A stretch of 64,000 nt of DNA. Origin: Acetomicrobium flavidum. Lineage in GTDB: Bacteria; Synergistota; Synergistia; Synergistales; Acetomicrobiaceae. Under the pieces are notes generated by a model, which was not told where the DNA came from, did not search any database, and saw nothing but the letters and a program-made list of their open reading frames with translations. Shown piece after piece: positions 31,385-62,539 of the stretch. Every line of letters begins with the position of its first letter. The stretch's first letter is position 1. The DNA is taken from contig NZ_FSQZ01000001.1 of NCBI RefSeq assembly GCF_900129645.1, positions 434,001 to 498,000 of the forward strand. Reading direction: 5' to 3'. The position numbers and the translations under genes are program-made.

Positions 31385-33148
31385 TTAGGGATTCTGATCT
31401 TCCTGTCCCTCACCGACTATGGTCAAAGAACGCCGCAGTAGCCCTTCCACGTAATGATCGGTTTCAAATATGCGAAGCGTTCCCTCTTCCATCCTGCGCT
31501 TTTTCATCTCCGATACCAGTTCGTACTCCTCATCCAGGGGGATGTTTTCTCCTCCCTCATCGCCTTCCTGCTCAAGCAACGGCCCATACAGCAATTCCAC
31601 GATCACTTGATTGTTGGATTCCTCGGCATTGATTTCGTTCAAGAACTCCTTAAAAGAAGTTATAGCCCTCCATCCCGACATGAGAGAAATCTGAGACGGC
31701 TCGGCTATGCCTCCGCCCCTGACCACTACCTCGCACAATCCCGAGGCCTTATCGGGAACCTTTAATGACAGCTTCTTTATCTCCTGCTCGCCACGGAACT
31801 TCCTCAGTGTCACTTGCACTTCCAGGTCCTGGCCCGGCTTGACGTTATCTTTATTAGGTATGTCCAGTTTTTCAATGTAAACGACTTTGGGCTCTCTTGT
31901 AACCTGAAGTTCTACGTGTATTCCGAGAGGCTCAATTTCCTTGAACCTATTTAGAGACATAGACGATACCAATCTCATGATCTCACGGCTGACTATCTGA
32001 TCCATCAGGTCGCTGTCCGAAAAGTACACATTTTTTTTCGTAAAGCCTTCCACGAATCCCTTCCCCTCTACCTTGACGGTGACAAAACCCGTTCCCTCTC
32101 CGATTCTGCCCCAAAGGTCGTCAAATAATCCGAGCAACGCCCCCGGGAGTATCTGATTCATGAGGAAGGGATCGTTTACGACTTGGAAGCGTTTGAAGGC
32201 GGTCGCCCCCGAATCGTCGGAAAACTTGACGGATACCTCCACGCCCTGCGGGAATTGACCAATTCGCCCGGCTATGGCTTGAGGCCTGTCCTGACTTACG
32301 ACCCCCACTATCGAGACAGGGCTTCCCAATTTAAAGGGGCTTTTGATGCTCGGCACGATGTCGTGGACCCACGAGCGGGTCAGGGGATATGATACATTTC
32401 CCCTGTTAAGAAAGGGATGGGCAAAGGCCAGGAAGTTGCCCTTGTCATCGACAGCCGTTAAGGTGCCCGTCGCACCGACGTTCACATCACCCCAGGCAAG
32501 AAGCGCCCCAACAGAATCCCCCGGATGCAGTTTAGCGGCGTAATCCACTTTTATTCCGCCCGGAGGCATGTCGAAGGGCAAAGGTTCTACCTTGCAGTTT
32601 AAATCACCGGACAACTTCTCTGCCCCTCTAGCTCCAATGCCTGATACGATCAGAGGTGCGCTTTTGCTCTGGTTAAACTGGACCTTGCCCTTCTGCATCG
32701 ACCTATCGGCCTGCCAACTCCAAGCCTTACTCATCTCTTCGATGGGCGTGACTAACCCCAAATTATGATCGCTGAAATCCCAACCGTAACCTATGGCTCC
32801 CACTAAGCGGCCGTCTATAAAAAAGGGACTGCCGCTCATGCCTGCAGCTATTCCCCCTATCTTATCGACCAGAGGGCCGCTTGCACGTATGAGGACGAGC
32901 TTTTGAGGTTCCCCGGTGCTGGGGATTATGCTGATAACTTCGGCCGGAAAGGAGATGCGCTCCAGGCCCTTTATCACGGTGATCACCTCTCCACGCATGC
33001 CGGGCCGAAGCTCATTCAAAGGAAATATCGGAACGCTTGGCTTAAAGGATAAGGCGACAGACTCACCGGCAGAAAAAAGCAACGTCAAAGCCGCAACAAA
33101 TGCCGCAAATATCGCGAAAAAACGATTTTTATGAGCAAACATCTTCAA
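31385..33148 (-). CDS. SpoIVB-type (S55) peptidase domain protein
   Basis: A 587-residue exported protein. A signal peptide (about 1-33) is followed by an S55 domain (about 40-260) with LVLIRASGPLVDKIGGIAAGMSGSPFF; the catalytic Ser lies in GMSGSP (residues 103-108), as in SpoIVB. The remaining 330 residues have no known motif and look like beta-rich periplasmic domains. SpoIVB itself cleaves a spore protein, but this organism shows no sporulation genes, so the target is different. It is encoded immediately before mlaEFD and overlaps prfB by 4 bp. Confidence 0.85.
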   Translation of the reverse strand: MKMFAHKNRFFAIFAAFVAALTLLFSAGESVALSFKPSVPIFPLNELRPGMRGEVITVIKGLERISFPAEVISIIPSTGEPQKLVLIRASGPLVDKIGGIAAGMSGSPFFIDGRLVGAIGYGWDFSDHNLGLVTPIEEMSKAWSWQADRSMQKGKVQFNQSKSAPLIVSGIGARGAEKLSGDLNCKVEPLPFDMPPGGIKVDYAAKLHPGDSVGALLAWGDVNVGATGTLTAVDDKGNFLAFAHPFLNRGNVSYPLTRSWVHDIVPSIKSPFKLGSPVSIVGVVSQDRPQAIAGRIGQFPQGVEVSVKFSDDSGATAFKRFQVVNDPFLMNQILPGALLGLFDDLWGRIGEGTGFVTVKVEGKGFVEGFTKKNVYFSDSDLMDQIVSREIMRLVSSMSLNRFKEIEPLGIHVELQVTREPKVVYIEKLDIPNKDNVKPGQDLEVQVTLRKFRGEQEIKKLSLKVPDKASGLCEVVVRGGGIAEPSQISLMSGWRAITSFKEFLNEINAEESNNQVIVELLYGPLLEQEGDEGGENIPLDEEYELVSEMKKRRMEEGTLRIFETDHYVEGLLRRSLTIVGEGQEDQNP

Positions 33149-34264
33149 GCCCCCTTGGCCTTTATTAGGTTTTTGCGCATCCTCAGGTAGGCAAATATGA
33201 AGTCGTCAATATCGCCATCCAAGACCGAATCGACATTGTAGGACGTATAGCCGGTACGATGATCTTTGACCATGGTGTAAGGATGCAATACATACGATCT
33301 AATTTGGCTGCCCCAACCTATCTCCTTCTTCTCTCCGTGAAGATCTTCAAGCTTCTTTTGCTTCTCCTGCTGATACCTTTCGTAGAGCCTGGCCTTGAGA
33401 AGTCGCAGGGCCATCTGCCTGTTCATGTGCTGCGATCTCTCGTTCTGACAAGTGACCACTATGCCCGTAGGGACATGTATGAGCCTCACAGCTGAGTCGG
33501 TCATGTTGACGTACTGTCCCCCAGCGCCGCTTGCCCTAAAGGTCTCCATCTTTATGTCCTCCGGCCTGATCTCTATGTCCACGTCGTCGGGCAACTCCGG
33601 CATTACCTCCACAGAGGCAAAACTGGTATGCCTCCTTTTGGACGAATCGAAGGGGGATATCCTCACCAATCTGTGTATGCCCTTTTCGGCCTTAAGGTAA
33701 CCGTATGAGCAGAAACCCCTTATAAGCACGGTGGCGTACTTTATTCCGGCCTCCTGATCGGGCAAGGCATCTATGACCTGCGTCTCGTAACCGTGCCTTT
33801 CCGCCCAGCGCAAGTACATCCTAAACAACATCTCCGCCCAGTCTTGGGCGTCCAGACCGCCTGCACCCGCATGTACCGTCAGGATCGCGTTAGACTTATC
33901 ATATTCCTCGTCAAGCAAGAGCTCCATCTCTACGGATTCTATTTCCCTTTGAAGACGGGATGCCTTTTCGTAAAATTCAGCCAAAAGCTCTTCATCGTCG
34001 CTCTCTCCGATGAGCTCCGCTAAGATGACCAGCTCTTCATATGCACTCTCCATCTTTTGCCACTGGTCAAGCTTGTCCTGCAGGTAAGATAGTTTTTGTG
34101 TTACGCCTTGAGCATCAGAAGAGGCCCAAAAATCAGGCAATGACGCCCTCTCCAGCAAGGTCTCTGCCTGCTTTTTTATCGAATCTACGTCAAAGGCTTC
34201 CCCGCAGCTCATTTATGGACGAGCGCAGTTCCTCCAAGACAGTTGAAATAGGCTTAAGTTCCAT
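33145..34264 (-). CDS. prfB: Peptide chain release factor 2 (programmed +1 frameshift)
   Basis: A 372-residue RF2 made from two frames. The first, from ATG 34264 (GGGAGG seven bases ahead), encodes MELKPISTVLEELRSSINELRGSL and meets UGA at 34192-34190. A +1 shift at CTT-TGA-C joins it to DVDSIKKQAETLLERA and the rest. The codon-recognition motif is SPF (ISPFDSSKRRHTS), marking RF2, and GGQ is in [14 protein letters not shown]. It reads UAA/UGA. Since UGA is its own stop, low RF2 favours the shift. It is the first gene of the long operon. Confidence 0.96.
34189..34206 (-). other. prfB programmed frameshift site
   Basis: On the minus strand CGGGGAAGCCTTTGAC: a Shine-Dalgarno-like GGGGA three bases before the slippery CTT-TGA-C. 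This is the classical RF2 autoregulatory arrangement; the protein before the stop ends ELRGSL, as in many RF2s. Confidence 0.92.
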
Positions 34265-34358
34265 TGACATTCCTCCCAAATTAATGCATTCTTCATACCT
34301 GGGGTAAAATTTATTATAACATCGACACGAACTTAGACGAGCGGGAGCATGGCGAACA

Positions 34359-35129
34359 ATGTCATTTATAATGAAAAAATTAAAGACGGATAGAGGATAC
34401 ATTCCCTTGTATGAGTTCAATTGCGTAGAATCGACGCAACGCATGGCCAAGGTGCTTTACGACAGATATAAACATGACACCTACGTCGTGTGGGCCAAGG
34501 AACAGCTAAAGGGCAGGGGAAGAAGGGAGAGGGTCTGGCATTCCCCGCGGGGCGGACTATATTTTTCCCTCTTTTACGAAAACCTGGAAGTTCGTTTTCC
34601 CCAACTTGCAAGCCTCGCCTCCGGGCTGGCAATGAGGGAAGCCTTAAAGGAGATTGCCGATATATCCTGCGACCTGAAATGGCCAAACGATATCCTATAT
34701 CGAGACAAAAAGCTTTGTGGTATATTAAGCGAGGCCGCAAGCTGCGGCACAGACGTTCATCGCGTAATAATTGGCGTGGGCGTAAACGTAAATGCCGAGA
34801 TTCCGCATGAGTTGAAGGACATCGCCGTCTGCCTGAAGGAGATAATCGGAAACGAGGTGGATCTCGAAGGTTTGCTGTCCCTCTCCGCCGAAAGGCTCCT
34901 TTTTAGGATTGCGCAACTTGAGACTAAAGAAGGACAGGAAGAGATATTGGACAGTTACAAAAGGCACTGCACGACTCTGGGCTCTACTGTAACCATTATC
35001 TTGGATGAAGGGTCCATTACAGGGCAAGCCATAGATATAACCCAAGAAGGGGCACTGCAGGTCTTAGCGTCAGGCACGTTGCATTCGATAGCTACGGGCG
35101 ATGTCATACATGTAAGAAAAAGGGGGTGA
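34359..35129 (+). CDS. birA: Biotin-[acetyl-CoA-carboxylase] ligase
   Basis: A 256-residue monofunctional biotin protein ligase without the N-terminal DNA-binding domain. Motifs: KGRGRRERVWHSPRGGLYFSL (about residues 50-70, the GRGRxxxxW biotinyl-AMP loop), LKWPNDIL (about 104) and KLCGILSEA, VIIGVGVNVN. It transfers biotin to carboxylase or decarboxylase subunits. The ATG at 34359 is about 12 bases after GGGAG; an ATG at 34348 is in another frame. It is followed by selD after 5 bp, and divergent from prfB. Confidence 0.94.
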   Translation: MSFIMKKLKTDRGYIPLYEFNCVESTQRMAKVLYDRYKHDTYVVWAKEQLKGRGRRERVWHSPRGGLYFSLFYENLEVRFPQLASLASGLAMREALKEIADISCDLKWPNDILYRDKKLCGILSEAASCGTDVHRVIIGVGVNVNAEIPHELKDIAVCLKEIIGNEVDLEGLLSLSAERLLFRIAQLETKEGQEEILDSYKRHCTTLGSTVTIILDEGSITGQAIDITQEGALQVLASGTLHSIATGDVIHVRKRG

Positions 35130-35134
35130 CGTAA

Positions 35135-36172
35135 TTGCGATTGACCGAATTGGCCAGGACGAGCGGTTGAGCAGCCAAATTGGGTCCGGCGGACCTCAAT
35201 AAACTGCTCGATAGGTTTACGCCGCAGGATCACCCCAGGTTGCTTTCCTCATGGAGGGGCGGAGAGGATGCTGCCCTGTGGGTCTTGTCCGACGAACGTG
35301 CCGCTGTTCTTACGGTTGACATCATCACCCCCGTCGTAGACGACCCCTACGTCTGGGGACAGATCGCCGCGGCAAACTCCCTAAGTGACGTCTTTGCCAT
35401 GGGGGGAAGGCCTTTGCTTGCCCTAAATGTCGTTGGATTTCCCATCAATTGTCTCCCCTTGGAGATGCTCTCTTCCATTCTGGAGGGAGGCATGGAAAGG
35501 ACGACAAGGGCAGGAGCCATTGTGGCAGGGGGACACACCGTAGAGGACGAAGAACCCAAATTCGGCCTGGTCGTATACGGCGAAGTGTCCCTCACGGAAA
35601 TATGGTACACAAGGGGAGCTAGACCTGGGGATCAACTAATACTTACCAAACCTCTTGGAAGCGGAGTGCTGGTAACGGCCCTAAAGGCCGATATGCTTGA
35701 GGATGATGAGGCGAACAACCTGATATCAGTGATGACGCAGCTTAACGACCTTCCCTTGCGTTTGCCCAAAGAGATACGGTGCAAAGTTCATGCCTGCACG
35801 GATGTCACGGGTTTTGGGCTGATCGGACATCTGGCGGACATGCTCGGTGAAGACATCAACATAAAGTTATACGCAAAAGAAATACCCCTGCTTAAAGGCG
35901 TATTGCAGAAGGTCTCCATGGGCTTGGTCCCTGCAGGAGCTTACCGCAATAAGGCTTACTACACCGAGGCGGGCAAGGCAGCAAACTTGGAGTCGCTCGA
36001 CGAAGATATGCGGGATGTATTGTTCGATCCCCAGACATCCGGCGGACTGCTTTTGGCCGTCGATCCTTCCGTAGCAAATGAGGCGCTAAAATTGATCAAA
36101 GATGCAGGATTCGAAGAAAGCAGCATCATAGGTGAGGCCGTGCAAGGCTGCGGGAAGATCGAGATAGAATGA
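35135..36172 (+). CDS. selD: Selenide, water dikinase; itself a selenoprotein (Sec12)
   Basis: A 345-residue enzyme making selenophosphate from selenide and ATP. Conventional ORF calling starts at 35180, but the frame continues upstream through TGA 35168-35170 to TTG 35135, preceded by GGGGGTGA. The restored start reads MRLTELARTSG-U-AAKLGPADL, where U12 replaces the active-site Cys and K15 is the conserved Lys. Downstream are DDAALW-like GGEDAALW, ANSLSDVFAMGGRPLLALNVV, and FDPQTSGGLLLAV near the C-terminus. A SECIS-like hairpin follows the TGA. Coupled to birA. Confidence 0.93.
35168..35209 (+). promoter_or_regulatory. Bacterial SECIS element in selD
   Basis: Directly at the UGA: GAGCAG (35169-35174) pairs with CTGCTC (35204-35209); inside, TTGGGTCC (35180-35187) pairs with GGACC-T-CAA (35191-35199) with one bulged U, leaving a GGC loop at 35188-35190. 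A bulged U and G in the apical loop about 17 bases from the UGA fit the SelB-binding SECIS pattern. Confidence 0.8.
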
Positions 36173-37065
36173 AAGGCCCCTTGGGCATCTTTAGGTTGCC
36201 CAAGGGCCTTAAATCGGTTCCAGATCGTCAGATAGAGGTCATGCAAGTAGGATATCCACATATTTTCGACCTTTGGTGCCGGCAGCAACACCCCGCATGA
36301 GACGTTTAACGTCTTTTCCCTGACCGTCCTAGGCGACCAAACGTCTGCAACCACAAGGCAGTTACGGAGTTTTGCCCCCTGAATGAGTTGTGTTAACTCC
36401 GCTTCGCCGTCGCCCCTTTTCCACATTTCAAATAACTCAGGTCCAGGCCTGGTAATTGTGGCGCCTGAGGCTTTCAACAAAAGCTGAGCACGGCCCGTCA
36501 GGTCAAGAATGGGCACGCCCTGCAGTATCTCCCTGCCGACGCTGACCACGCTGTCCAGCCTGCTTTGAAATTCAGCCAACCGCCTTTGAAAATAGTCGTA
36601 CATGGAGGGGTCCATCTCGGCCAAGATGGCCAAAACACGACTTGCCATGAACGACAAGGATGCCGGATCGAAGAAGTACTTGTCGAACTCATCCCTTTCG
36701 CAGGGCAAAAATTCATAGAGATACTTTACCTTGTACCCGCCCTTAGGGATGCCCATCTCTTTCGGAGTTAAGGCGATGATGACGGCATTTTTAGGGAAAC
36801 TTCCGCTGCGGACTACAAGCGTTCCATCGGACGCCCAATCAAATCTGGAACGCACGTCCACCATCTGTCCCCCGATGAACCCGACAAGCAATGCCACCTC
36901 AGGGGGCATGGCCACGATTATGGCAACTTTCTTACCCTCGGGCAAGGCTGAAGCAGGTCGAGGAAAGACCAGCGCGATGAAGAACAAAGACGCCAAAGCT
37001 ACGCCGGCAGCTTTCATCAAAACCTTTTCGATTCTAGTTCTAACTTGTCCTTCTTTTGCGTTCAC
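35959..37065 (-). CDS. ZnuA-like metal ABC binding protein, 3' end running into selD
   Basis: Resembles ZnuA-type metal-binding proteins: a signal peptide (about 15-40), VAIIVAMPPEVALLVGFIGGQMVDV, FDPASLSFMASRVLAILAEMDPSMYDYFQRRLAEFQSRLDSV. The usual metal-ligand His residues of ZnuA are absent, so its cargo is uncertain. It should end near residue 290 (SYLHDLYLTIWNRF), but the frame stays open for about 70 more codons through the hairpin and 214 bp antisense to selD; those last residues are low-complexity and probably accidental. GTG 37065 is used (GGGAG eight bases ahead). No ABC permease is adjacent. Confidence 0.7.
   Translation of the reverse strand: MNAKEGQVRTRIEKVLMKAAGVALASLFFIALVFPRPASALPEGKKVAIIVAMPPEVALLVGFIGGQMVDVRSRFDWASDGTLVVRSGSFPKNAVIIALTPKEMGIPKGGYKVKYLYEFLPCERDEFDKYFFDPASLSFMASRVLAILAEMDPSMYDYFQRRLAEFQSRLDSVVSVGREILQGVPILDLTGRAQLLLKASGATITRPGPELFEMWKRGDGEAELTQLIQGAKLRNCLVVADVWSPRTVREKTLNVSCGVLLPAPKVENMWISYLHDLYLTIWNRFKALGQPKDAQGAFHSISIFPQPCTASPMMLLSSNPASLINFSASFATEGSTAKSSPPDVWGSNNTSRISSSSDSKFAALPASV
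36173..36210. terminator. Hairpin between selD and the ZnuA-like gene
   Basis: AAGGCCCCTTGGGCA, nine-base loop, TGCCCAAGGGCCTT: a 14-bp stem with one bulged C immediately after the selD stop. No long T-run follows on either strand. It could end selD transcription; on the other strand it lies inside the open frame of the ZnuA-like gene. Confidence 0.65.
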
Positions 37066-37100
37066 GCTACGATCTCCCACCCGATAGGCCTTTAATTGGA

Positions 37101-61003: not shown

Positions 61004-61043
61004 GTTTTCGAAAGACCGCGTCAAGTTTTTGTAGGATTTTTAG
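61004..61043 (+). repeat. Left inverted repeat of the insertion sequence
   Basis: Starts GTTTTCGAAAGACCGCGTCA and continues through TTTGTAGGA to TTTTTAG. Matches the right end with several mismatches and a small gap. Confidence 0.75.
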
Positions 61044-61084
61044 GAACCACTCCTCATGTATCTTAAAGGGCAACGTCTTTTAGT

Positions 61085-62539
61085 TCAGCTAAAATCAAAC
61101 CCGCTATGGCATATGCCCTTTAAGGTCGTGTATAGGGGCGTTACCTTCCCGGTGCCGAGTACCGTTATGGAGCCTATCTCGCTTACAGTCGAACTAAAGA
61201 TATCTTCTAGGTTTAATGTGAAGTTGTGTCTTTTGTCTGTCTTGTCGCCCTTTTGGTCATTTCCCCTTACGTGTTCCGCTTTCACTTTCCCACCGCTACA
61301 GATGTAAGCCCTCAAAGCAGACACATTCTTTAAACCCTTCCTGCTCCAGGCCATAGGCCTGGAACTTAACCTAGAAGAAAGCACGTGACTAATGTGACCC
61401 TCGGGGCTTGAGCTGCCGCAATCCTCTTCGTTTCGAATCGTTATAGACTGCCAGTTGTTGGTTATATACCTCCTGAAATCTGCGATCATCTTTCTTTCCC
61501 TCTCGCTTGAAGCGCATTTAAACATCTCGGAGGTTATTTTCTTAAAAAAGTTCGAGTCATTTGTATTTATGGCCCTGTATATATCACGTCTCTTTTCAGG
61601 CTGCCTTGCCGTGGATTCAAGGATCGCTTTATTTAGGTGAAATTTATCCAGCACCAGCTTTGACTCGGGCAGCCAGCTTATACCTTCCTTTATCCAATTT
61701 GCACCATCTCCATGGATGTATATGCCCTTTATGTCCTCCGGGTCGTAAAGCTCGTATATCCTATCTGCTACCTCAAGCCAAAACTCATCTGTGTCCTTTC
61801 CGTAACCGCTCATGTATATAGGGTTTATACATCTGTTTTTGGACCCCTCTTTAAAGGTGCCCTCGTATATGCAGACTAAAGGAAGATTCGTGCTTCTGCC
61901 GTTTTGCAGAGATGCGTGGTCCTCATCTGCATCTATATGTAATACCTCTACGCCTCTTTTTTTAGGGACCTCTACCTTCAAGGCCTCCAGGTTTAGGCTG
62001 TGTATCTTGTTTTTGACGGTCTGTTTGGATAACTCACCCTCAGTTACGTTCATCGAACTTTTGGCGTAAGATACCTGGCCTGCCGTCTCTACCAGCTTTA
62101 CCGTTACTGTTTTGCTCAACCTTTGACGTTTATCCAACCTTAATGCTTCGTCCAGGGGGTATACATATTTTTTATGACTTTTGTCGAAGTAGTAGGTCCT
62201 CTTGAAAGATATATCACCAAAGATGGTATATAAGCTCCTTCTGTCCTCACGCCTTTCTACGACCAATCCTCTTTGCTTTCGAGACGTTTTGTCCTTTAAT
62301 ATGGCTTCGTCTACAAGCTCGAAGTAAGCCTTTACGATCTCCCGGATGAAGGCCTTCGTCATGCGAAAAAGCTCATCTTCTATTTCAGCCAGCGTCCTGA
62401 CATTGGAACTGCAAAAAAACTTCAATATCTCGGAGATGAAGTTTGAGACAATTTGTAGTAAAATAACCTTGTTCAAGTTGGGACCCTCCTTTATGAGTTT
62501 TTGGTCACACAAAGATTCTACCAAAAGGAGCGGTCCCAT
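61085..62539 (-). CDS. ISLre2-family (UPF0236) transposase
   Basis: A 484-residue transposase of the UPF0236/ISLre2 family. Conserved blocks: RRSLYTIFGDISFKRTYYFDK (about residue 100), VEVLHIDADEDHASLQNG (about 195), IKGIYIHGDGANWIKEGISWLPESKLVLDKFHLNK (about 275) and the acidic residues therein that likely form the metal site. Length is full for the family and there is no frame break, so the element may be active. GAGGT precedes the ATG. Confidence 0.9.
   Translation of the reverse strand: MGPLLLVESLCDQKLIKEGPNLNKVILLQIVSNFISEILKFFCSSNVRTLAEIEDELFRMTKAFIREIVKAYFELVDEAILKDKTSRKQRGLVVERREDRRSLYTIFGDISFKRTYYFDKSHKKYVYPLDEALRLDKRQRLSKTVTVKLVETAGQVSYAKSSMNVTEGELSKQTVKNKIHSLNLEALKVEVPKKRGVEVLHIDADEDHASLQNGRSTNLPLVCIYEGTFKEGSKNRCINPIYMSGYGKDTDEFWLEVADRIYELYDPEDIKGIYIHGDGANWIKEGISWLPESKLVLDKFHLNKAILESTARQPEKRRDIYRAINTNDSNFFKKITSEMFKCASSERERKMIADFRRYITNNWQSITIRNEEDCGSSSPEGHISHVLSSRLSSRPMAWSRKGLKNVSALRAYICSGGKVKAEHVRGNDQKGDKTDKRHNFTLNLEDIFSSTVSEIGSITVLGTGKVTPLYTTLKGICHSGFDFS

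Follow-up and report, generated by a model that had tools for sequence, protein, structure and literature searches.

The selD gene of Acetomicrobium flavidum is, with a probability that we put at about 0.97, a genuine selenoprotein gene, in which the UGA at codon 12 is read as selenocysteine (Sec) with the aid of a hairpin and of SelB carrying Sec-tRNA-Sec. The gene lies on the forward strand at positions 35135-36172 of the window, the 64,000-nucleotide stretch of contig NZ_FSQZ01000001.1 that was analyzed here (contig positions 434,001 to 498,000). By frame, homology, and alignment it encodes a selenide water dikinase of 345 amino acids, with a TTG start and a TGA stop.

Reading frame and start codon of selD

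The frame and the site that precedes it can be read directly from the DNA. An in-frame TAA (35132-35134) immediately precedes the TTG at 35135-35137, from which the product reads LRLTELARTSG-TGA-AAKLGPADLNKLL and onward until the terminal TGA at 36170-36172. The internal TGA at 35168-35170, predicted to be decoded as Sec, occupies the catalytic Cys position by alignment. A good ribosome-binding site, AAGGGGGTGA (35120-35129, forward strand), overlaps the stop codon of the upstream birA gene and is separated from the TTG by 5 nt. The original prediction had extended the frame upstream through this TGA to a TTG with a ribosome site, and both elements are present as described. It had also held that standard gene calling truncates the gene, as proved to be the case for a plain table-11 ORF caller, which returned only 35180-36172, 330 amino acids from an internal TTG.

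The choice of TTG as the start codon, which had been offered as an inference, coincides in position with the ATG of three relatives. Of four relatives from the same genus, three begin MRLTELARTSGU, with ATG where the window gene has TTG, and the fourth has the N terminus MTKFRLTELAKTSGU. The start codon is best supported by this same-genus ATG, which points to TTG 35135 as the probable site of initiation.

Catalytic site and relation to known SelD proteins

The read-through product, N-terminal extension included, matched the NCBIfam selD profile TIGR00476 with 340.4 bits (curated cut-off, 125 bits) over profile positions 1-309 of 311. The best match among solved structures was 3u0o, in which U12 aligned to the first Cys of IRLTQYSHGAGCGCK, which we take to be the Cys17 site of Escherichia coli SelD. 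U12 also aligned to the Cys of RSSGCAAKVGPGDL in 2yye (Cys13 of the Aquifex SelD chain), presumably a natively Sec-containing protein, and Lys15, three residues past U12, aligned with the conserved Lys of the solved SelD chains. That U replaces the catalytic Cys, with the conserved Lys three residues on, had been proposed from the letters of the sequence and is upheld by alignment with solved chains and relatives. No homologue lacking the residues upstream of GPADLN was found among the solved chains and the 47 relatives' loci aligned through the site.

The closest parallel is the Sec-containing SelD of the Aquifex aeolicus type (PDB 2yye/2zod), in which the catalytic loop is the same (RSSGCAAKVGPGDL in the solved chain and RTSGUAAKLGPADL in the window product) and which likewise has a single Sec near the N terminus, a Lys three residues on, and both AIRS domains; the window gene differs in starting with TTG and in nothing else of note. 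The Cys-containing SelD of the E. coli type (PDB 3u0o) belongs to this family too, in an alignment that begins at residue 1, but has Cys17 where the window protein has Sec, and the Cys form needs no recoding. On these alignments, SelD is predicted to be a selenophosphate synthetase in which Sec12, working with Lys15, would be the catalytic nucleophile and would make selenophosphate from selenide and ATP.

Conservation of the UGA codon across the phylum

Strong selD matches were obtained in 104 of 151 genomes sampled from the phylum. A tally by hand found one in-frame TGA in 101 of these 104, none in two (G141 and G139), and one fragment (G136) that stops short of the site. When the site was aligned in the loci of 47 relatives, TGA stood in the same column in 45, with TGC in the other two (L031 and L032), and the Lys at U+3 was kept in every one of the 42 distinct UGA-bearing sequences, the window included.

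The two Cys (TGC) genes, L031 and L032 from G141 and G139, have a different N terminus, SNCTSGGCGAKIGPGEL, and group at family level with Sec forms, which suggests replacement or transfer of selD. Genome G126 carries two different selD genes (L029 and L079) from two sequence groups, both with TGA at the site; the second may reflect contamination (4%) or be a second, acquired copy.

Selenocysteine machinery and other selenoproteins in the genome

The genome (2.02 Mb, 99.9% complete) was searched by family for the components of Sec decoding, which the original prediction had implied to lie outside the window and whose absence would have counted against it. All three were found: selA (596 bits, C1:95572-96930), selB (375 bits, C1:96969-98852), which begins 38 nt downstream of selA, and a tRNA-Sec gene, which scored 81.3 bits, the next candidate reaching 42.5, and was confirmed by ARAGORN with anticodon TCA. 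selA was also present in 18 of 20 relatives searched. Scans of the window with Rfam and ARAGORN found nothing, as expected because selC lies elsewhere. A single selD match above the cut-off was found in the genome, so that any use of Sec requires this selD to work.

Two glycine reductase A (GrdA) genes (G000:C1:694286-694726, locus L059, and G000:C1:55584-56024, locus L060) each contain a single in-frame TGA where Sec is expected, in the context TECFVUTAAGAMDL. Three GrdB genes were present as well, with no internal stop within the matched stretch. Formate dehydrogenase alpha (FdhA) gave no match above the family cut-off in the genome, which fits the earlier observation that Sec-using organisms without FdhA possess a Sec-containing SelD (PMC1794560). 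The genome search also found no ybbB (tRNA 2-selenouridine synthase, TIGR03167); on the basis of that absence, from a search that covered ybbB among the genes of other selenium uses, SelD probably serves Sec only. Ten further ORFs of the window, extended by read-through and scanned with Pfam, gave no convincing additional selenoprotein, and Blastn against plasmids returned short selD matches only.

A SECIS-type hairpin downstream of the UGA

A SECIS hairpin, missing from the original prediction, is present downstream of the selD UGA. The SECIS-like stem-loop spans 35166-35212 on the forward strand (-24.5 kcal/mol, z -3.2; p about 0.001 against synonymous-codon shuffles). Its apical hairpin, GGUCC-GGC-GGACC at 35183-35195 on the same strand, has a loop that begins with G, is conserved in the phylum, and is the predicted SelB site. 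In shuffles that kept the protein and redrew synonymous codons, applied to the 42 distinct sequences with the window included, the apical hairpin beat its own shuffles at p<0.05 in 28 (mean z -2.1) and did not in 14, counts that are inflated by relatedness; L029, L030, and L054 showed no advantage. The apical hairpin is encoded by GGT-CCG-GCG-GAC. Among sequences that share the amino acid concerned, the four codons occur in 38/40, 35/40, 35/35, and 31/33, with background frequencies in the rest of the genes of 0.13, 0.28, 0.28, and 0.57, respectively; codon constraint near the start could partly reflect other selection. In six relatives that read GPAEL rather than GPADL the hairpin has re-formed 3 nt on, mostly as GGUCCAGC-GGA-GCUGGACC, with a loop that again begins GG. 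Whatever relatedness adds to the counts, this change of register with pairing retained is independent support for the hairpin.

The lower stem, which contains the UGA in the window, is not common to different genera and is therefore not to be counted in the conserved element. RNAalifold found no consensus structure in an ungapped alignment of the 42 sequences, and the mixture of two hairpin registers in that alignment may be the reason. The element resembles the SECIS read by SelB in bacterial genes such as E. coli fdhF, likewise a stem-loop directly 3' of the UGA, in that the apical loop starts 18 nt downstream of the UGA and begins with G; it differs in its short loop of 3 nt (GGC or GGA) and in the two registers of the apical hairpin within the phylum. 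SelB is predicted to bind the hairpin.

The proposed course of expression is that ribosomes would start at TTG 35135 and decode the UGA of codon 12 as Sec, assisted by the SECIS hairpin directly 3' of it and by SelB with Sec-tRNA-Sec. Selenophosphate from SelD would in turn feed SelA. As SelD would itself carry Sec, it would need selenium to be made; a selenium-dependent feedback loop of this type is known for the SelD family.

Alternative readings of the UGA codon

Three other accounts of the TGA were weighed. It might be decoded as a standard residue, such as Trp or that of some other near-cognate tRNA, in place of Sec, and the residue inserted is one that sequence tools cannot read. The position is, however, the catalytic Cys/Sec site, the two relatives that lack a UGA carry Cys there and not Trp, and the genome holds complete Sec machinery together with the UGA-containing GrdA genes, all of which makes such a reading very improbable. 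Slightly less credible still is translation from the internal TTG at 35180, which would give a truncated SelD-like protein lacking the Sec loop and leave the upstream match fortuitous. Although this is the ORF that a plain gene caller picks and the AIRS domains fall entirely inside it, there is no good ribosome site ahead of 35180, and the sequence surrounding the UGA and Lys15 is kept in aligned UGA-bearing relatives and matches solved SelD chains. A product without the Sec/Lys loop would, moreover, miss the catalytic residues in a genome with no second full selD.

A Cys-SelD gene misread in sequencing or struck by a recent nonsense mutation could also show a TGA, which is one base from the Cys codons TGC and TGT, but conservation refutes this origin, with TGA at the site in many genera and families and the hairpin conserved; it is the least likely of all, with a practically negligible chance. 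Sec insertion at the selD UGA is the reading that we infer from the sequence comparisons.

Genes neighboring selD

Directly upstream of selD, on the same strand, lies birA (biotin protein ligase, 34359-35129), and the two genes are probably co-transcribed. Divergent from this pair on the reverse strand is prfB (RF2, 33145-34270), the expression of which needs a +1 frameshift at CTT-TGA-C (34195-34189). A leader of about 25 codons ends in MSMELKPISTVLEELRSSINELRGSL-TGA, and past the slip site the +1 frame, DVDSIKK and onward, continues into the PCRF domain of RF2; plain gene calling starts prfB at 34212 and misses the true N terminus. The frameshift site is kept in relatives.

The neighborhood of prfB and selD recurs in several families, in 10 of 13 loci of 6.5-8.5 kb and in 8 of 30 loci whose flanks are short, so that this second count is an underestimate. 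Divergent prfB and selD are seen in the window (33145-36172) and in L081-L084, L087, L089-L093, L044-L046, L049, L051-L053, and L058, with no birA match between them in L089, L093, L044-L046, and L049. RF2 competes with Sec insertion at UGA (PMC4513850), and a literature search on the adjacency of prfB and selD found no paper. An unlikely explanation of the adjacency is that the intergenic region shared by the two genes functionally couples the strength of termination at UGA to the supply of selenium. Gene order passed down by descent accounts for it no less well, since the S55 gene and others also keep their place.

The convergent neighbor at 35959-37080 (reverse strand) has lost its stop codon: its frame continues through the terminator-like repeat of selD and overlaps the 3' end of selD in antisense for about 210 nt, and 8 of 8 relatives checked have a stop just past ...WNRFKA or the corresponding residues. 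This tail seems to stem from a stop codon lost recently. Elsewhere in the window, a gene of the UPF0236 family (Pfam PF06782) lies at 61040-62539 on the reverse strand.

Significance

Sec-containing SelD proteins were described as already known when the gene was first noted, and the literature agrees, ranking SelD as one of the five bacterial selenoproteins with the widest distribution and describing the Synergistetes, the phylum to which the gene content of the window also points, as rich in selenoproteins, with Sec used by 13 of 14 sequenced organisms (PMC9312934, PMC5029168). That the Sec-SelD reported here is of this well-known kind, common to nearly all selD-bearing relatives, is well supported. 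The genome carries the equipment for selenocysteine, and the one SelD that it encodes is, on the reading favored here, a selenoprotein in its own right. This brings no conceptual change; what it offers in practice is a correction of the gene start and of the active site. The Sec of this single SelD lies upstream of 35180, and annotations that start there lose the catalytic residue.
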